Assembly: GCF_017471675.1 (NCBI RefSeq)
Contig: NZ_JAFUSK010000027.1
Coordinates: 1 to 38,233, forward strand
DNA: 38,233 nucleotides
DNA from: Pseudobutyrivibrio sp.
GTDB taxonomy: Bacteria > Bacillota > Clostridia > Lachnospirales > Lachnospiraceae
Reading direction: 5' to 3'
A program made the position numbers and the translations under genes. Each line of letters begins with the position of its first letter. The first letter of the stretch is position 1. Of the stretch, positions 1-9,025 are shown one piece after another. The notes beneath the pieces were generated by a model. The model had not been told where the DNA came from. It saw only the letters and a list, made by a program, of their open reading frames with translations, and did not search any database.

Positions 1-122
1 CTTCAGGCGGTGGAGGCGGCTTTTCCTCAGGCGGAGGCGGCGGCTTTTCCTCAGGCGGAGGTGGCGGCTTTTCCTCAGGCGGAGGTGGCGGCGGTCACTC
101 TGGTGGCGGTCACAGTTTCTAA
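1..122 (+). CDS. 3' end of a protein with a Gly-rich repeat tail (partial)
   Basis: The open frame enters from the left edge and ends at TAA 120-122. The visible 39 residues are almost only Gly, Ser and Phe, in an eight-residue period (Ser-Gly5-Phe-Ser), closing with a His-containing Gly run. Tails of this kind end membrane-anchored TPM-domain (YgcG-like) proteins and some DUF2207 proteins in Firmicutes, but no diagnostic domain is visible, so family assignment is a guess. The tail is probably disordered and exposed at the membrane or cell surface. The next gene begins 160 bases downstream in the same direction. Confidence 0.7.
   Translation, partial: SGGGGGFSSGGGGGFSSGGGGGFSSGGGGGGHSGGGHSF
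3..92 (+). repeat. 24-bp in-frame tandem repeat encoding Gly-rich octapeptides
   Basis: Three full 24-bp units start at 3, 27 and 51, and a partial fourth at 75. The core is TCAGGCGGAGGCGGCGGC followed by TTTTCC. Units differ only at third codon positions (GGA/GGT/GGC), so the protein repeat is exact while the DNA has begun to diverge. The array may extend left of the window. Confidence 0.85.
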
Positions 123-196
123 AGATTTAGATAATTTTTTAACAAAATCCTAAATTTAGACTTTACTAAATCCACAGAAAGTGAGAAAATGTAATC

Positions 197-219
197 AATA
201 ACGCGCAAGTGCGCTTATT
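197..219 (+). other. Inverted repeat in the leader of the NifU-like gene
   Basis: AATAA, an unpaired C, GCGC, loop AAGT, GCGC, TTATT forms a nearly perfect hairpin in the 160-base gap between the Gly-rich protein and the NifU-like gene. It has only a short A/T-rich trailer, so it could be a weak terminator of the upstream gene or an operator. No clear -35/-10 pair was found in this gap. Confidence 0.4.
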
Positions 220-282
220 TATCATGTCATTAATGTAGTAGCAATATATTAATGGTTATTGAACGAAGAAAGGAGTTCTACA

Positions 283-975
283 ATGATTTACACAAAAGAA
301 GTAGAAAACATGTGTCCTGTAGCAAAGGGCGCAAAGCATGAACCAGCTCCTATCCCTGAGGAGGGAAAATGGGTAAACGCTAAGCAGATTACTGACATTA
401 GCGGTTTCACACACGGTGTTGGCTGGTGTGCTCCACAGCAGGGTGCCTGCAAATTATCTTTAAATGTTAAGAATGGTGTTATTGAGGAAGCACTTGTTGA
501 GACAATTGGTTGCTCAGGTATGACACATTCAGCAGCTATGGCTGCAGAGATTCTTCAGGGAAAGACAATCCTTGAGGCTCTTAATACAGACCTTGTTTGT
601 GACGCTATCAACACAGCTATGAGAGAGCTTTTCCTTCAGATCGTTTACGGACGTACACAGTCTGCATTCTCTGATGATGGTCTTGCAATCGGTGCTGGTC
701 TTGAGGATCTTGGAAAGGGTCTTCGTTCACAGGTTGGTACAATGTACGCAACAAAGGAAAAGGGTGTTCGTTACCTTGAGATGGCTGAAGGCTATGTAAC
801 AGGTATCGCACTTGATGATGATAACGAAGTTATCGGATATCAGTTTGTTTCTCTTGGAAAGATGACAGACTTCATTAAGAAGGGTGATGATCCTAACACA
901 GCATGGGAAAAGGCAAAGGGCCAGTACGGTCGTGTTGATGATGCTGCTAAGATTATCGATCCACGTCAGGAATAA
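283..975 (+). CDS. NifU-like iron-sulfur cluster scaffold family protein (partner of GGGtGRT protein)
   Basis: This 230-residue protein resembles the NifU N-terminal/IscU scaffold fold. A GC-SG-MTHSAA-MAAEIL-GKTI stretch at about 76-96 matches the second-cysteine region of IscU. Cys49, Cys56, Cys77 and Cys106 are candidate cluster or metal ligands; Cys11 lies in an N-terminal extension. It is longer than typical IscU (about 130 residues), with an extra C-terminal region. ATG 283 is chosen because AGGAG at 271-275 precedes it; an in-frame TTG at 259 has no ribosome site. The GGGtGRT gene follows after 21 bases, so the two are surely cotranscribed. Assembly of Fe-S clusters is a family-level inference; the role of this subgroup is not established. 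Confidence 0.85.
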   Translation: MIYTKEVENMCPVAKGAKHEPAPIPEEGKWVNAKQITDISGFTHGVGWCAPQQGACKLSLNVKNGVIEEALVETIGCSGMTHSAAMAAEILQGKTILEALNTDLVCDAINTAMRELFLQIVYGRTQSAFSDDGLAIGAGLEDLGKGLRSQVGTMYATKEKGVRYLEMAEGYVTGIALDDDNEVIGYQFVSLGKMTDFIKKGDDPNTAWEKAKGQYGRVDDAAKIIDPRQE

Positions 976-996
976 TATAGGAAAGGAGAAACAAAA

Positions 997-2007
997 ATGG
1001 CTTTATTTGAATCATATGAAAGAAGAATTGATCAGATCAATGCTGTTCTTAACAAGTATGGTATCAGCTCAATCGAAGAAGCTGAGAAGATTACAAAGGA
1101 CGCTGGTCTTGATGTATACGAGCAGGTAAAGAAGATTCAGCCTATCTGCTTCGAGAACGCTTGCTGGGCTTACACTGTAGGTGCTGCAATCGCTATTAAG
1201 AAGAATTGCCGCAAGGCTGCTGATGCAGCTGCAGCAATCGGAGAGGGACTTCAGTCTTTCTGTATTCCAGGTTCTGTTGCTGATCACCGTAAGGTAGGTC
1301 TTGGACATGGTAACCTTGGTAAGATGCTCCTTGAGGAGGAGACAGAGTGCTTCTGTTTCTTAGCTGGTCACGAGTCATTCGCTGCAGCTGAAGGTGCTAT
1401 CGGTATCGCTGAGAAGGCTAACAAAGTACGTCAGAAGCCACTTCGCGTTATTCTTAACGGTCTTGGTAAGGACGCTGCTCAGATTATTTCACGTATCAAC
1501 GGTTTCACATTTGTTGAGACAAAGTACGATTACAAGACAGCTAAGCTTAACATCGTTTCAGAGAAGGCATACTCAAACGGTCTTCGTGCAACAGTTAAGT
1601 GCTATGGTGCTGATGATGTTCAGGAAGGTGTTGCTATCATGCATCACGAGAACGTAGGTGTATCTATTACAGGTAACTCTACAAACCCTACACGTTTCCA
1701 GCATCCAGTAGCTGGTACATATAAGAAGGAATGTGTTGACCTTGGCAAGAAGTACTTCTCAGTTGCTTCAGGCGGTGGTACAGGACGTACACTTCACCCA
1801 GATAACATGGCAGCAGGTCCTGCTTCATACGGTATGACAGATACTCTTGGACGTATGCACTCAGATGCTCAGTTCGCTGGTTCATCTTCAGTTCCTGCAC
1901 ACGTTGAGATGATGGGTCTTATCGGTATGGGTAACAACCCTATGGTTGGTGCTACAGTTGCAGTTGCAGTTTCAGTTGAGGAAGCTGCTACAGCAGGTAA
2001 GTTCTAA
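997..2007 (+). CDS. GGGtGRT family protein (function unknown)
   Basis: This 336-residue protein carries the family-naming motif GGGTGRT at residues 259-265, followed by a conserved stretch rich in Gly, Met and small residues to the C-terminus. It has no signal peptide or membrane segment, so it is probably cytoplasmic. The ribosome site GGAAAGGAG ends 7 bases before ATG. Codon use is strongly biased (CGT for Arg, GGT for Gly, AAC, GAG), like the highly expressed ilvC and glnS in this window, which suggests abundant expression. It follows the NifU-like gene in one operon and ends at a strong terminator. The pairing suggests a role linked to Fe-S chemistry, but no activity is known to me. Confidence 0.9.
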   Translation: MALFESYERRIDQINAVLNKYGISSIEEAEKITKDAGLDVYEQVKKIQPICFENACWAYTVGAAIAIKKNCRKAADAAAAIGEGLQSFCIPGSVADHRKVGLGHGNLGKMLLEEETECFCFLAGHESFAAAEGAIGIAEKANKVRQKPLRVILNGLGKDAAQIISRINGFTFVETKYDYKTAKLNIVSEKAYSNGLRATVKCYGADDVQEGVAIMHHENVGVSITGNSTNPTRFQHPVAGTYKKECVDLGKKYFSVASGGGTGRTLHPDNMAAGPASYGMTDTLGRMHSDAQFAGSSSVPAHVEMMGLIGMGNNPMVGATVAVAVSVEEAATAGKF

Positions 2008-2024
2008 TATAATTTCCTCTTAAA

Positions 2025-2070
2025 GGCTTCTCCTACTAGGAGAAGCTGTCACCGAAGGTGACTGATGAGG
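2025..2070 (+). repeat. Dispersed two-hairpin repeat, copy 1
   Basis: A 46-bp element made of a long hairpin (GCTTCTCCTA, C, TAGGAGAAGC at 2026-2046), a second hairpin (GTCACC, GAA, GGTGAC at 2048-2062) and the trailer TGATGAGG. A second copy with the same architecture lies inverted at 17651-17696. It sits between the GGGtGRT stop and the terminator. Related elements are, from general knowledge, common between genes of gut clostridia. Confidence 0.8.
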
Positions 2071-2076
2071 TGTTTA

Positions 2077-2106
2077 GCCCTTAGGCATTTGCCTAAGGGC
2101 TTTTTT
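2077..2106 (+). terminator. Rho-independent terminator of the GGGtGRT operon
   Basis: A perfect 10-bp stem GCCCTTAGGC / GCCTAAGGGC with loop ATTT is followed by six T at 2101-2106. It lies 70 bases after the GGGtGRT stop and just after the dispersed repeat. Confidence 0.93.
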
Positions 2107-2213
2107 ATATATAAAAATACTAGGTGATTTAGAGCATTTGGATTAACAAATAGTACATAATTTAATGATATATTATGTTTTAGAGTGGGGCGCAATTTAA
2201 GGAGGTTTAAAGT

Positions 2214-3642
2214 ATGCTTAAAAGAGTCTTTGGATTATTTGCAGCGTTTTTTTTTAATCGTCATAACATTTATTGGGTGTGGCTCTAAAAATAGTGCGAC
2301 CCCAGCTGTAGAATCAGAGGAAAGTGAAGAAGCTCTCCCAACAGGAGATGTGAGCCTTAGAGTGTGGGGAGCCGATGAAGATGAAGAACTTATTAACGAA
2401 ATTATAAAAAGTTTTATAGCTGAATATGGTTCTTTAGCTAATCTTACAATTACCTTTGAAGCTCACAGCGAATCAAATTGTAAGGACGATATATTAGGAG
2501 ATGTTTTAAATGCCCCTGATGTATTTACGTTTGCTGATGATCAGCTTATGGCTTTTGTGGCGTCAGGTGTTTTGCGCCAAGTTTCAAATTCAGATGAAAT
2601 TACTGGACGAAATTTGGCTGCTTCAAATGATGCTGCATCAGTTAATGGAACTCTCTATGCATATCCACTGACAGCAGATAATGGATATTTCCTGTTCTAC
2701 AACAGTGCGGTTTTAAGCGACAGCGATGTGGAAACCATGGATAGCTTATTAGCTGCTGCAGGAGCCCATGGACAAAAAGTATTCATGGAAATGAATTCTG
2801 GATGGTATATGTATTCATTTTTCGGAAATACAGGTCTTGAGATTGGTCTAAATGATGATGGAATTTCTACATACTGTAATTGGAATTCCCAATCTGGTAC
2901 TTATACTGGTTTTGATGTAGCAGAGGCTATGCTTAAAATAGGCACAAATCCTGCTTTTACAACTGTAAGTAATGATGGATTTGTGGGTGGCGCAAAAGAT
3001 GGTACTTTTGTTGCTGGTGTAAGCGGAATATGGGATGAAAACGGAATTAAAGAAGCCTGGGGAGATAACTATGCTGCCTGCAAACTACCGACTTATACAA
3101 TAAAAGGTGAGCAACTTCAGATGGCAAGCTATGCCGGATATAAGCTTGTAGGTGTAAATTCATATTCAAAAAATAGAGCCTGGGCAGAGAAGTTTGCAGA
3201 CTGGATGACGAATGAAAAAAATCAAACTCTAAGATTTGAAATGCGAGGCCAAGGACCATCTAATACTAATGCATCTAATTCTGGAGCTGTGGCGGAGTCT
3301 AAGGCTATCCAGGCTCTTCAACAACAGGCGCCATATTCAAGTTTGCAGCGTGTTGGCGGCACTTATTGGGAACCTGCATCTACTTTTGGAAAACTTATGA
3401 GTGAGGGAAATCCTTCAGGCAAACAGCTTCAAGTTCTTTTAAATGAGCTGGTGACTGGTATTACAGGTGAAGAATCAACAGGTATCGAAGATGATACAAC
3501 AGCAGAGGAAACAGCTGATGCATCAGAGGAACTGACCGAAGAGGAAACATCAGAAGAGTCGACCGGCGAGGAAGTCTCTGAAGAAATAGCAGAAGAGACA
3601 CCTGATGATATGTTAGAAGAATCAGAGGATTCTGAGGAATAA
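2214..3642 (+). CDS. Sugar-type extracellular solute-binding lipoprotein, frameshifted in its signal peptide
   Basis: The protein resembles family 1 periplasmic solute-binding proteins (MalE-like) of ABC importers. The best start is ATG 2214, 7 bases after AAGGAGGTT. From there the frame runs 24 codons and stops at TAA 2286-2288. Removing one T from the nine-T run at 2247-2255 joins it to the main frame and gives a 475-residue lipoprotein with Lys-Arg n-region, hydrophobic core and a lipobox ending FIGC at Cys22. A GTG at 2185 opens the main frame without a shift, but it has no ribosome site and yields a poor signal. Residues 415-475 form a Glu/Asp/Ser/Thr tail unusual for binding proteins. 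No permease or ATPase is nearby; two chemoreceptors follow, the first after 15 bases. The gene could be phase-off, slippage-decoded, or carry a base-calling error. Confidence 0.85.
2247..2255 (+). other. Nine-T homopolymer at the frameshift point
   Basis: The T9 run lies within the signal-peptide coding region, 34 bases into the gene. With eight T the ATG 2214 frame would continue into the binding-protein body; with nine it stops at 2286. Runs of this length are known sites of replication slippage and of RNA polymerase slippage. Confidence 0.85.
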
Positions 3643-3657
3643 TAGGAGGACAAGGGA

Positions 3658-5382
3658 ATGAATAAAAAAAGTAGTATTCGTGTAAGGATATTGATTCCAG
3701 TCCTTTTGTTGGGAGTGGTTTCTATAGTTTCAAATTTTATGGCACTTGTCAATTTAAGCAAGGTTAATAATAATGCATCAAAGATTGCTGATGAATATAT
3801 GGTGGCAATTTCTCAACTTAATCAAATAGGACAAGCTTCAAAAGACATACATACTCTTGCGTTATCGCATATAGTAGCAACTGATTTTGAAACTATGACT
3901 TCCATTATTTTAAAAATTGATACTGAAGAGCATGATTTAGATGAGCAGATGCTGTCATATAAAAATCTTGGAATTGGTAATGATTCAGCTTATGAAAAAA
4001 TGGTTAATGATTATCAATCTTTTAAGGAATCAATTATGATTTTGCTTGCTCAAAGTGCTAATCAAAAGACCAAAGATGCCTATGCAACAGCAAATGGTGC
4101 AGTTTCTGATAATGCAAAATTGCTTTCTTCTGACATTAGCGACATTACTTCCTCATTCCAAAATGAGGCTAATGTTCAAAGACAAGCTTTATCATCGGCG
4201 AATAAAATTGCTAGCATTACTTCTCCAATAGTAGTAGTTATCAGTGTGATTGCAGTGATTGTAGCTGTAATAGTTGTTTCTATTTATGTTATCAGACCTA
4301 TTATTAAGGCTGAATCTGAACTTAATGATGTTATTGACGGAATAAACAGACGTGAAGGTGATTTAACAAAACGTATAACAGTTTCTTCAAACGATGAAAT
4401 TGGAGCATTGAGTAGGGGAATCAATTCTTTTATTGAGCATCTACAAGGCATTTTTAATGTAATCAAAACCAATTCCACCGCGATGGATAAGGTAGTAACT
4501 GATGTTTTAGGAAGTGTGCGTACATCCAATAACAGTGCTTCTGATTTGTCTGCATTAACAGAAGAGCTTTCTGCTACTATGCAGGAGGTAGCAAACAGTG
4601 CAGGAATTATAAATACAAATACTGAGACAGTAAGGCTCAAAGTGGACGAAATGGCTCAGAAGAGCCGCGAAATTAATGATTATTCTAAGATAATGAAAGA
4701 TCATGCCAACACAATGGAACAGACTGCGAGATCGAACATGGAAGAAACAAACAAAAAGGTAGAACAAATACTTGCATCTTTAAATCAGGCAATTACAGAC
4801 AGCCAAAGCGTAGATCAGGTTAATTCTCTTACTGACGATATTATGAGTATAGCCAGTCAGACAAATCTTCTTTCTCTTAATGCTTCAATAGAAGCTGCTA
4901 GAGCTGGTGAAGCAGGAAAAGGCTTTGCTGTTGTTGCTGATGAGATTGGTGGATTGGCAGAAAACAGCAGGCAGACCGCTGCAAACATCCAGGAAATAAA
5001 TTCTGTAGTTGTAAATGCAGTTCATAATTTGGCAGATAGTGCTAATGAAATAGTAGATTACATGCGAAACTCGATTCTTCCTGAGTTTGCCAGATTTGTA
5101 GATGACGGTGGAAAATACAGAGATAATGCTGATTATATTGAGTCAGTAATGAATGATTTTACTGAAAAAACTGATGGATTTAAAATCACTTTTGATGAAA
5201 TAGCAGAATCTATAAGTAGTATTACATCAGCTATTGATGAAGGAGTACAAGGAGTTTCATCAGCGGCGGAAAGTACGCAAACTCTTGTATATGACATGGA
5301 TACAATTACAAAGCGTATGGATGAAAACCAACGAATAGCCTCTGAGTTAGATGATGAAACAGCTATATTTTCGAAGATATAA
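3658..5382 (+). CDS. Methyl-accepting chemotaxis protein (first of two)
   Basis: A 574-residue transmembrane chemoreceptor. The first membrane segment is about 9-31, the extracellular sensor about 32-187 (helical, 4HB-like), the second membrane segment about 190-213, HAMP about 214-266, then the cytoplasmic coiled coil. The conserved hairpin tip that contacts CheA/CheW lies around 398-437 ([20 protein letters not shown]). It ends without a tethering pentapeptide. GGAGG at 3644-3648 drives ATG 3658. It starts 15 bases after the solute-binding protein, so the two are almost certainly cotranscribed. This invites the idea that the binding protein presents ligand to this receptor, as MalE does to Tar in enterobacteria; that link is inference. 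Confidence 0.95.
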
Positions 5383-5456
5383 TTTTTGATTTTTATGTGA
5401 ATCGAGTGAAAAAATTGTGTATTTAAATCCAAAAGCAAAATTTAGTCTTATTATGT

Positions 5457-5472
5457 AGGAGGGGGAATGTAA
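5457..5472 (+). promoter_or_regulatory. Possible start-stop element ahead of the second MCP
   Basis: AGGAGGGGG at 5457-5465 is followed by ATG 5467 and immediately by TAA 5470. A second ribosome site GGAGGGG at 5485-5491 then serves the real MCP start at 5497. The first site may be a chance or relic site, or a minimal start-stop that holds a ribosome. No promoter was recognised in the 114-base gap. Confidence 0.25.
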
Positions 5473-5496
5473 GATTTAGCTGTTGGAGGGGTTAAC

Positions 5497-7344
5497 ATGA
5501 GCGAGAAAAACAAAATTATGGAGAGGTTAGATGAAAATCTTACAGCTGAGCAAAAGGAAAATCTTAAAGCTGTTGGAAAGGTTGTTGAAAATAATAAAGG
5601 CAACTTTTTCCAATCAATTACTTTTCAAAACATAATTGTAAATGTTGTTATACTTGCGGCATTTATAATATATGTAGTGATTTCCATTTCAGCTATGCAA
5701 AGCTTAAAGTCAGTGGCTTTTGAATCAAGTGAAAATGAGCTTATTTGCGCACAGGAATCGGCTGCATTACGTCAAGATGTAATTCATATTTCAGATGAAA
5801 TTAATCGTACATTAGGACAATTTGAGGCAGGCAAGGAAATGCCTGCTGAAGAATTTGCGAATATGGAAGGTTATATGAATGATATTGGCTCTCATCTTGA
5901 TTATATGGATGATAGCCTGCTGGTTGGATACCTACCAGGTGGGCAGGAGAGAGTTGATAATCTCAGAGCTAGCGCAGAGGCATTAGTTGCTGCAGCTGGT
6001 GCTATGGAAAACTTTATCATATCAGGTGATTTTAATGGAGCAATTGGCTGTGTATCTGGTGATTACGGAACAAGCCTTGGTGCAACATATGATGCTTTAG
6101 ATGCTATTGATGAGGGACTTAATTCTCTAGGCGATGGCTTTGGCGCTTATTTGGATGGTTACATTGCCCAGGTTTCTTTAAAGGGATATATAGTCATTGC
6201 GTTGGTTGTTGCCTTGATTATACTTAGCTTTGTGCTTTCATTTGTTAGAATTAATAAGACTATACTTGGTATTTCATATGAATTACAAGCTATCATTAAT
6301 AATATCAATAAGGGCAAGGGTGATTTAACTGCTAGAATAAATACAAAAACAAAAACAGAGCTTGCACTTATATCTGATTGTATCAATCAGTTTTTAGGAA
6401 CATTGCAGGGCGTAATCAGAGATGTTAAGGATGGAGCAACAGTTCTTACATCATCTGCAGATAGTGTTATTGTAAAGATTCAAAGTGCCAGTGATAATGT
6501 AACAAATGCATCTGCTGCTATGGAAGAGCTTGCAGCATCTATGGAAAATGTAGCGACAACCACAGGGGATTTACATGATAGGCTGTCATTAGTAAAAGAG
6601 GCTACCGGTGCTATTGATGAAGAAGCGAGAGCAGGTTCGGAAAAAGCTAATGAAATTAAGGCAGAGGCAGACAGCATTAAACGTGAGGCAAATGCTAAGA
6701 AGGAAAACACTGGCGCTAAGATGGAAGAGCTTTCGAAGGTTCTTGAGGAGTCTGTTAAGGAGTCTGAGCAGGTTAATCAAATCGGTGATCTTACAAATGA
6801 GATTTTGGATATTGCAAGCCAGACCAATCTGCTTGCTTTAAATGCATCTATTGAAGCTGCTCGTGCTGGTGAAGCAGGTAAAGGTTTTGCTGTAGTTGCG
6901 GATGAAATAAGCACGTTGGCTGCTAATTCCCGTGATACAGCAGGCAATATTCAGGAAATATCTGCAAAGGTTACTACTGCTGTTAAGACTCTTTCTGACA
7001 ACGCAGTACAGGTTATTGATTTTATTAATCAGAATGTACTTGCGGATTATGATGCGTTTGTAGATACAGGAGCGAAGTATGAAAATACAGCCACTATGAT
7101 AGATGAAATGCTGGCTACATTTACAGAAAAGGCCAATAATCTTAACAGTGTTATGGCTGAGATGTCAGATAGAATTGAAAGCATTTCTAACTCAGTTAAT
7201 GAAAGCTCTAATGCAATCAGCATGTCTGCTACAGCAACAACTGAGATAGTGGGTGAAATCCAGGGCATTAATGATGCTATGGACCAGAATAATGATGTTA
7301 CTAAACAGTTGAATGCAAGCACCCAGAAGTTTGAAATTGTTTAA
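5497..7344 (+). CDS. Methyl-accepting chemotaxis protein (second of two)
   Basis: A 615-residue chemoreceptor. Unlike its neighbour it has a cytoplasmic N-terminal extension of about 42 charged residues before the first membrane segment (about 45-67). An acidic extracellular helical sensor (about 68-228) follows, then membrane segment two at about 230-252, HAMP to about 305, and the signalling coiled coil with tip around 440-478 ([20 protein letters not shown]). The cytoplasmic halves of the two receptors are clearly related, including an unusual segment after the tip (FVD-GG/TGA-KY), while the sensors differ. This suggests duplication followed by sensor replacement. It is followed by a strong terminator. 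Confidence 0.95.
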
Positions 7345-7353
7345 TTTAGTGTG

Positions 7354-7390
7354 GGGACTCCAGTATTTATACTGGGGTCCCTATTTTTTT
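7354..7390 (+). terminator. Rho-independent terminator after the MCP pair
   Basis: A 12-bp stem GGGACTCCAGTA / TACTGGGGTCCC (one G-T wobble) with loop TTTA is followed by TATTTTTTT. It ends the binding-protein/MCP/MCP unit. Confidence 0.93.
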
Positions 7391-7551
7391 AGTACGATTA
7401 TTTGTGATGGAATTTGATTGAAAATGTGCAAGATTGTTATAAAACTGTGAACGAATTGTGAAAAATATGTTTATAATAACAATTGAATTAAAAGACCTAC
7501 CATAGTAATATACTTTGTGTTGTTATAAATACAGATTCGAAAGGTTATATT

Positions 7552-7758
7552 ATGTTTAATATTATTATGCTTGTGGTATTTTCTCTTGTAACATTGTTTT
7601 ATGCTTTTTATGTTGCTTCACAGATTCGTTTCGCAGCTAGTTTTGAAGGAGCAGCAGATAATAAGGTTATTACAAGGTCTATAGTTGTAGTTGTAATTAG
7701 TATTCTTGCACTTGCTATTCTTTGGTTCCAGGCTGCATTTGTTTATTTTTATCATTAA
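7552..7758 (+). CDS. Small membrane protein, function unknown
   Basis: A 68-residue protein with two predicted membrane helices (about 2-23 and 42-65) joined by a short loop with Arg, Glu, Asp and Lys. Not recognised. GAAAGG at 7538-7543 lies 8 bases before ATG. The gene has about 207 bases upstream and its own terminator downstream, so it is probably monocistronic. Small two-helix proteins often modulate larger membrane complexes, but nothing here identifies a partner. Confidence 0.75.
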   Translation: MFNIIMLVVFSLVTLFYAFYVASQIRFAASFEGAADNKVITRSIVVVVISILALAILWFQAAFVYFYH

Positions 7759-7783
7759 TTACAGAGTTTAATTATGTTTTATA

Positions 7784-7818
7784 AGCCATGTATCAATTTT
7801 TGGTACATGGCTTTTTTT
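7784..7818 (+). terminator. Rho-independent terminator after the small membrane protein
   Basis: The stem AGCCATGTA / TACATGGCT encloses an 11-base loop and is followed by TTTTTTT to 7818. Confidence 0.9.
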
Positions 7819-7912
7819 ACACAAATATTTAATACTTTACACAAATTTCTAATACAAATATTTGATAGAAATAAATAAAGGAAAACAGGAAGTAACTATA
7901 AGGAGATTAGAT

Positions 7913-8404
7913 ATGAATTTATTAAATCGATACGCTAAGATTGAAAGAGATTATTCTTATGGTTATGGTATAGCTGTCTTTGGAATCATTGTAATCATTT
8001 TTGGAATTTTTGCATTTTATGTTGTAAATGGCAGAATTGATTATCCAACCACAGAAGCTGTAGTTACGGATGTTGAACTTTACGAGGAGGCTCACTATGA
8101 GGGTGAAACTCGTTATGATGCTTCATACACAATATATTTTACATATAATGTTGATGGTCAGGAATATGAAGGTAAATTTGATGATCGAGATAAGGAAGAA
8201 GTTGGAAATGTTATAGAGATTAATTACAATCCATCAGACCCTACTGATGTAAGTTGGCCAAACAGTATTCTAATACCTATTATAATAATTGTTGGTGGAG
8301 GAGTGATGGTTACAGTAGGTTTGATTAACGCTAGAAAAATAAAAGAAAAAAATCAGAGATTAAAAGAGCAGGAGGAGGAGTGGAATTATGGCAAAGACTT
8401 ATAA
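7913..8404 (+). CDS. DUF3592-like membrane protein
   Basis: A 163-residue protein with an N-terminal membrane helix (about 18-40), an extracytoplasmic beta-rich domain and a second helix (about 122-145), ending in a charged cytoplasmic tail. The middle part, with the pattern TEAVVTDV ... Y-I-YFTY-VDGQEY ... I-YNP-DP, resembles DUF3592 proteins, whose function is unknown. ATG 7913 is chosen over an in-frame TTG at 7862 because AAGGAG at 7900-7905 precedes it. It overlaps the next gene by 17 bases, so the pair is translationally coupled. Confidence 0.82.
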   Translation: MNLLNRYAKIERDYSYGYGIAVFGIIVIIFGIFAFYVVNGRIDYPTTEAVVTDVELYEEAHYEGETRYDASYTIYFTYNVDGQEYEGKFDDRDKEEVGNVIEINYNPSDPTDVSWPNSILIPIIIIVGGGVMVTVGLINARKIKEKNQRLKEQEEEWNYGKDL

Positions 8405-8888
8405 ATTCGAACAGGAAAGAAAATTTCTTAAAGCTGGATATTTTATGAAAGATGAAAGTGGTAATATTGTATATGAAGCTAAAATGCTGACCCAGCCTTT
8501 GATTGGGGCTAGTGATTTTGATTTTATTAATCATCTTAGTGGACGAAAAATACTTCATAAAGTTTCGAAGACCTTAACTACCCAAGTTAATGAAGACTTT
8601 GCTACAAATTCAAGATTTAAACTGGATGGCACTAATATTTGGGACTATCTCCATGAAGAAGGTATTAGAATTGATACAGATTTTTCAAAAGGAAAAATTG
8701 GTTTGACGTATACTATTACCCTTAAAGGTCAGCCATGTGCTATAATTGCAAGCTCAACTCCTAAAGGAAAATCTGTAATAACCATGGGAAATTGTTATGA
8801 CGTGACAATAGAGGATGATAAAGATTTAGATATTGTTTTTCTTACAACATTTGCTGCTGCTAGAACTGACCAAGCTTTCTTGGATTAA
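8388..8888 (+). CDS. Hypothetical protein, possible LURP-one/tubby-like fold
   Basis: A 166-residue soluble protein with no membrane segment. It begins inside the end of the preceding gene, with GGAGGAG at 8373-8379. The alternating beta pattern and the stretch around ITLKGQPCAII recall the LURP-one-related (scramblase/tubby-like) fold seen in bacterial YxjI-type proteins, but this is a weak resemblance. Tight overlap with the DUF3592-like gene suggests the two act together, perhaps with this one on the cytoplasmic face. A terminator follows. Confidence 0.7.
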   Translation: MAKTYKFEQERKFLKAGYFMKDESGNIVYEAKMLTQPLIGASDFDFINHLSGRKILHKVSKTLTTQVNEDFATNSRFKLDGTNIWDYLHEEGIRIDTDFSKGKIGLTYTITLKGQPCAIIASSTPKGKSVITMGNCYDVTIEDDKDLDIVFLTTFAAARTDQAFLD

Positions 8889-8900
8889 TAAAAATTATGG

Positions 8901-8934
8901 CATGGCTCTTCTTATATAGAGGAGCCATGTTTTT
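8901..8934 (+). terminator. Rho-independent terminator
   Basis: The stem CATGGCTCTTC / GAGGAGCCATG (one wobble) with a 7-base loop is followed by TTTTTA. It closes the DUF3592-like two-gene unit. Confidence 0.9.
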
Positions 8935-8953
8935 ATGTTATAATTAATCCAAT

Positions 8954-8982
8954 TTGACTTTCTACCTGGTTACATATATACT
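8954..8982 (+). promoter_or_regulatory. SigA-type promoter for the aldolase gene
   Basis: TTGACT at 8954-8959, a 17-base spacer and TATACT at 8977-8982. The predicted RNA start is about 36 bases before the ATG at 9026. Confidence 0.75.
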
Positions 8983-9025
8983 TACTTTATCACTTTTAAT
9001 CACTAAAGTATCGGAGGACATAAAG

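Follow-up and report, generated by a model that had tools for sequence, protein, structure and literature searches.

The window analyzed here comprises 38,233 nucleotides (positions 1 to 38,233) of contig NZ_JAFUSK010000027.1 of a Pseudobutyrivibrio species of the Lachnospiraceae (assembly GCF_017471675.1). Its 5' part codes, on the forward strand throughout, for a GGGtGRT protein (997..2007; Pfam PF14057), a solute-binding protein (SBP) lying in a frame open from stop to stop over 2161..3642, and two chemoreceptors, of which MCP1 (3658..5382; Pfam 4HB_MCP_1, HAMP and MCPsignal) begins 15 bases after the SBP stop codon and MCP2 (5497..7344; Pfam) forms the right flank of the pair made up of SBP and MCP1. 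The SBP frame matches SBP_bac_8 (E 4e-28) as well as SBP_bac_1, and its mature MalE-like domain of the CUT1 type (2290..3480), with 4ua8 as the best solved relative (E 8.6e-37), is followed by an acidic low-complexity C-terminal tail (3481..3639) whose length varies among relatives; in Butyrivibrio sp. AC2005 (L050 5971-8322) a charged tail extends for several hundred residues. An AlphaFold model of the SBP built with 17 sequences (mean pLDDT 61.3, pTM 0.60) was too weak for use. Downstream of the GGGtGRT gene lies a terminator-like hairpin (2076..2101; one found against 1.2 +/- 1.2 in shuffled sequences, hence weak on its own), which suggests that SBP and MCP1 are probably transcribed from a promoter of their own.

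The start of the SBP gene is interrupted in the deposited record. A Shine-Dalgarno GGAGG (2201..2205) is placed eight bases 5' of ATG 2214, and the frame opened by this ATG (2214..2288) runs for only 24 codons to TAA 2286-2288 within a broken lipoprotein signal, the SBP frame being offset from it by one base across a run of nine thymines (T9, 2247..2255). Joining the 11 codons 5' of the tract to the frame from 2248 yields, as counted by eye, 25 residues up to GCGSK. Since the signals of the closest relatives (MSKRFFSFFVSLLLITALFAGCGSK) have this length too, the offset of one base is genuine, and Cys22 of the lipobox FIGC (codon 2278-2280) is correctly assigned. The first-pass annotation had described the ribosome site, the start, the tract, the early stop and a signal restored in the other frame, all of which the sequence, its translation and the relatives bear out, as they do its statement that the rest of the gene is intact, the SBP frame continuing over 485 codons to its stop at 3640-3642. 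As bases 2255-2257 read TAA, a -1 ribosomal shift or a single inserted U would terminate translation at once, and the frame can be restored only by the loss of one base or the gain of two. Judged from the sequence, T9 is both a repeat of a potentially hypermutable type in a coding start, as in contingency loci, and an A/T run of at least nine at a frame junction, as in genes read by slippage.

We then compared this start with those of orthologs from a contig search (21 loci), from the genus (29 genomes including the window's own) and from 397 family genomes, some loci belonging to the same genomes; L039, which is cut at its start, was left out of this comparison, and L081, L082 and L084 were read by eye. 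The start could be read in 28 distinct relatives, every one of which carries the signal with its lipobox in a single frame, and most begin at an ATG equivalent to 2214 preceded by GGAGG or a similar motif. Their longest T run in this stretch of the gene is T7, seen in six Pseudobutyrivibrio loci (L006-L011), and one further locus (L053) has an in-frame A8. Among these 28 relatives, same-species strains not included, we found neither a kept or length-variable tract nor a homolog that needs slippage to be read. Because all of them are intact, the break belongs to the window's lineage, and because they read in one frame with no T run above seven, the tract does not represent a conserved switch. 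The first-pass annotation had held that its candidate switch would be refuted if all relatives lacked the homopolymer and used another start; the long tract is indeed absent from them, but they use the same start. The 397 family genomes, themselves a sample of a larger set, yielded no allele closer to the window SBP (68% at best), which leaves no second member of the same allele group in which to follow the tract. G006, the nearest of the genomes (housekeeping dS 0.138), has no SBP match above a 42% paralog; its contigs end at this site, with GGGtGRT missing from the assembly, and the DNA 5' of its MCP2 gives a 94% match to the pair-free type, so that, judging by sequence, it may lack the pair. 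A short intergenic element at window positions 2020-2076, which belongs to no Rfam family (the window has no Rfam match at the gathering threshold), accounts for 28 of the 45 matches listed in this same genome for window positions 1-9000 (40 of 143 candidates scored).

The genomic context of the SBP was more informative. In 18 of the 21 contig-search loci MCP1 stands directly 3' of the SBP, the other three ending inside the latter; together with the window, L012 and seven family loci (L078-L084) these give 27 loci with downstream DNA, each genome counted once, and in every one of them the SBP is followed by MCP1. All 27 receptors match 4HB_MCP_1, 26 MCPsignal, 23 HAMP and six also TarH, those of L012 and L078-L084 being cut by the end of the locus, and over the available locus DNA they are 37-75% identical to the MCP1 of the window. 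In the family set, the SBP homologs whose identity is 42% or less lack any MCP1 match in the roughly 1.5 kb available beside them. Of four other SBP matches in the window's own genome, the weakest of them on C81, the three strongest each have two BPD_transp_1 permeases, and such permease-linked paralogs are not followed by a receptor gene of this kind; no such permease occurs among the 35 window ORFs scanned or among ten genes that flank the SBP in six distant relatives. These flanking genes vary by lineage (MatE, DnaB, Condensation, DUF4026, amylase, GH76, part of an ABC-2 transporter and others, one being without a match). Over 19 rows the distances of SBP and MCP1 correlate with an r of 0.94 (Mantel p 0.0005, uncorrected for the species tree), and the trees of both genes unite the five other Pseudobutyrivibrio alleles with full support and to the exclusion of the window, the position of the window itself being weakly supported in the SBP tree.

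Given this conserved adjacency, the reading that fits the two genes best is that of a dedicated sensory unit, in which the SBP, a sugar-binding surface protein, would bind to the receptor and the pair would act in chemotaxis. The earlier call of a solute-binding protein stands by family match and by a lipobox present in the downstream frame here and in all 28 relatives, but the neighbors point to a chemoreceptor partner rather than to a plain transport role. Maltose sensing in E. coli, where the binding protein MalE works with the four-helix-bundle chemoreceptor Tar, offers a likeness, as a MalE-like binding protein and a four-helix-bundle chemoreceptor occur here too; unlike that system, the window SBP is a lipoprotein whose gene is paired with and moves with the receptor gene and has no permease beside it. 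The sensor region of MCP1 gave no match to solved structures up to E 1, and among the matches listed in the open-licence literature we found no description of a pair of this kind.

The pair is not present throughout the genus. GGGtGRT marks the left flank of the insertion site: in the 24 genus loci with this gene, the SBP comes next in six (including the window), an MCP2 homolog without an SBP in 10 and neither in another six, while two end too soon; the MCP2 homologs that follow GGGtGRT directly, where the pair is absent, have 49-90% identity. These flanks alone were rejected as proof that the pair had been replaced, GGGtGRT being 98-100% identical in 22 of the 24 genus genomes with a match, and divergence was therefore measured against five housekeeping genes. 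Between the window and G013 dS is 0.63 for the latter, as against 2.00 for SBP and 1.84 for MCP1, and between G023 and G005 it is 1.57 as against 0.05 and 0.008. This mismatch between the pair and the housekeeping genes leads us to conclude that the pair has been exchanged between species. The housekeeping values uphold exchange for G013 and among the other species and weaken it for G027 (SBP/MCP1 dS 1.76/1.80, housekeeping 1.33) and G005 (1.71/1.72, housekeeping 1.64), whose comparisons with the window are not clearly out of line; by its sequence, the pair in the window is a separate allele. Two further irregularities were observed. The SBP genes of G027 and G013 differ by a dS of 0.18 and their MCP1 genes by 1.31 (L036 7435-9156; L037 7444-9165), which implies that recombination also breaks within or between the two genes. 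Likewise, MCP2 (window 5497-7344) shares 97% identity with its counterpart in L037 (dS 0.04), a locus inferred to come from the same genome as G013, to which the housekeeping dS is 0.63; on these values MCP2, too, seems to have been exchanged recently.

In light of the above, we propose, with a probability of about one half, that the window holds a recent, leaky and in principle reversible break by a single T, which affects the binding member of a sensory pair that had been acquired. Replication slippage would have recently added one T to the tract in the lipoprotein signal of the SBP, the first gene of a two-gene sensory pair that moves among species of Pseudobutyrivibrio. The binding protein would then be largely off in the sequenced clone, the main product being a 24-codon peptide with neither signal peptide nor lipid anchor. 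RNA polymerase would probably drop one U in the run in some transcripts, from which we expect a minority of full-length protein, and the same slippage at the DNA level could reverse the change. Expression of MCP1 would perhaps be lowered by polarity, leaving a receptor without its ligand carrier. The list of options in the first-pass annotation (replication slippage, slippage of RNA polymerase, sequencing or assembly error) was sound, and its second entry is plausible as the source of a minor full-length product from published data on E. coli RNA polymerase, where deletion on a T8 run restored a +1 reporter at 10% (PMC6260861). Slippage at natural runs is reported to reach 15-55% (PMC4256274), and in many genomes the avoidance of A/T runs becomes visible at a length of nine (PMC1088944). 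The available part of a genome-wide RNA study, however, finds homopolymer deletions rarer than insertions and records no frame restored by slippage (PMC5574713), which counts against such a rescue here.

The proposed break presupposes that the tract exists in the DNA. Were the genome in fact one T shorter, the gene would be as intact as in the 28 relatives, all of which are in frame, and an error of minimal size, a single wrong base within a long run, would account for the break. Such an error is nevertheless unlikely in view of how other tracts of this genome read. The tract is an unusual one: T8 matches in the window on both strands number three as against 8.75 +/- 4.06 in shuffled sequences, and we found 20 distinct A/T tracts of at least nine in its 3.10 Mb (23 rows, three T10 tracts being counted twice), which, classed by reading frames and not by annotation, comprise 13 intergenic tracts, six that are coding and in frame (L059, L060, L063, L064, L067 and L077) and one, that of the SBP, which is coding and broken. 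A candidate for a second broken gene, at the A9 of L064, was rejected, as a short frame (<100 codons) is open through the tract. A survey of reading frames around shorter tracts in the window plus 400 kb of the same genome (a 438-kb sample) returned 40 scored coding tracts of at least seven, of which 37 keep the same frame on both sides and three change it; the latter were rejected as errors since, read by eye, they look like ends or starts of neighboring genes, leaving no break among the 40. For a further 115 tracts of this length, including that of the SBP, coding sequence on both sides could not be established, and one more lies between strands. Counted before any reading by eye, the frame changes at 60 of 3409 random positions and at five of 155 tracts of six; the three changes among the 40 longer tracts are a higher share than that at random positions, which speaks against the proposed break. 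The number of T9 rows in the genome (23) falls inside the range of its 28 genus mates (1 to 36), and 32 of the 35 window ORFs scanned match a Pfam family, none of which is split between neighbors, the two separate MCP genes aside.

We consider quite unlikely a strict form of the candidate phase switch named in the first-pass annotation, namely an evolved switch in which a long T tract is kept and the lipoprotein is turned on and off by replication slippage, thereby altering what the chemoreceptor senses. The tract does lie within the signal of a surface lipoprotein, its on and off lengths follow from the frames, and a precedent exists in the Helicobacter pylori chemoreceptor TlpB, which is tuned by a variable G repeat in its mRNA leader (PMC8295292). 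Phase variation in this strict sense nonetheless finds no support in the relatives, none of which has a tract above T7, and the rarity of comparable sites speaks against it: a GGAGG and ATG with T8 in the first codons was encountered in only 14 rows (13 distinct sites) across the 29 genus genomes, once in the window's own genome, as against 49 rows for a backward control pattern, whence such sites are avoided. Moreover, eight of the 13 stay plainly in frame for 164 to 516 codons, including a lipoprotein-like start in L090, so that a T8 in such a signal is ordinary; the window and L096 have a long frame elsewhere, and in the remaining three the frames read from the start do not exceed 63 codons. 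A narrower version, confined to this species, in which slippage of two kinds, of the DNA from cell to cell and of RNA polymerase inside each cell, would together set how much ligand carrier the mobile pair supplies to its dedicated chemoreceptor, strikes us as a long shot.

Early permanent loss is likewise improbable; in this view the start has only just been lost, and the SBP, now a pseudogene, is disappearing from the acquired pair. The pair is absent from many genus mates and hence dispensable, and at columns that do not vary among the other 12 representatives the window SBP carries nine changes (four in the next highest), an excess that MCP1 does not share (seven at otherwise invariant columns, the highest being eight). 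In relative-rate comparisons with L036, its own changes are in excess with seven of seven outgroups (chi-square >3.84 in two), those of MCP1 with six of seven (chi-square >3.84 in none). This excess could reflect mildly relaxed constraint older than the T9 tract or a changed ligand. The absence of any stop throughout the frame argues against decay, as does a dN/dS of 0.06-0.08 for the mature domain against five Pseudobutyrivibrio loci (MCP1, about 0.10), values obtained with synonymous sites near saturation and from pairwise comparisons that are blind to recent decay. Finally, a shift of the start to TTG 2230 (or TTG 2239, or GTG 2185), giving a short lipoprotein signal (LDYLQRFFLIVITFIGC), is very improbable: no stop interrupts the SBP frame from 2161 onward across the tract, but these starts are weak, by eye none has a Shine-Dalgarno at a fitting distance, the short n-region is without net positive charge, and the relatives mostly use the equivalent of ATG 2214.

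Returning to the recent single-T break, several known systems offer partial likenesses. Contingency loci of Neisseria and Campylobacter likewise place a slippery run in a surface-protein gene that is turned on or off by frame, but theirs are known for poly-G tracts, while the window has poly-T and its SBP relatives have no kept or variable tract. Buchnera and Blochmannia are AT-rich endosymbionts with many long A/T tracts, whereas the window's genome has only seven coding tracts of at least nine, with one break. Frameshifted genes of these endosymbionts resemble the SBP in that a long A/T run breaks the frame and the rest stays intact (PMC4256274, PMC5574713). As described in the available parts of the sources, transcriptional slippage genes such as mxiE and spa13 of Shigella and tssM of Citrobacter (PMC1088944, PMC5009743, PMC4256274) similarly have an A/T run between two frames and depend on RNA polymerase slippage for the full-length product; they differ in that slippage is used by these genes, whereas the relatives of the window SBP need none, and in that mxiE and tssM gain a base where the SBP must lose one or gain two.

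Taken alone, the frame break is an ordinary kind of event, and the pair is the more useful finding. A 2025 screen, in which four-helix receptors and binding proteins are discussed, examined eleven folded sensor domains of the four-helix-bundle class from human gut bacteria without finding a ligand for them and, in the part available, suggests that receptors of this class may take their signal from binding proteins (PMC12415202). The unit described here, with its gene order seen in all 27 loci and exchanged between species, names partners for joint testing, and the broken allele would constitute a natural knock-out of one half of it. The break would also serve as a clean natural test of rescue by a Firmicute RNA polymerase in a gene that still looks selected. 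Were the species-specific switch true, clones of one rumen-type bacterium would differ in what they swim towards.

Two minor observations emerged from the same searches. A contig binned as Aeriscardovia, an Actinomycetota MAG (L039), carries a Butyrivibrio-like SBP-MCP1 pair and is probably misplaced. In L096 (G027:C50) a C5T8 run follows GGAGG and ATG, with a stop after eight codons and then a 247-residue open frame in another frame, possibly a second tract break in the genus or else a chance start.
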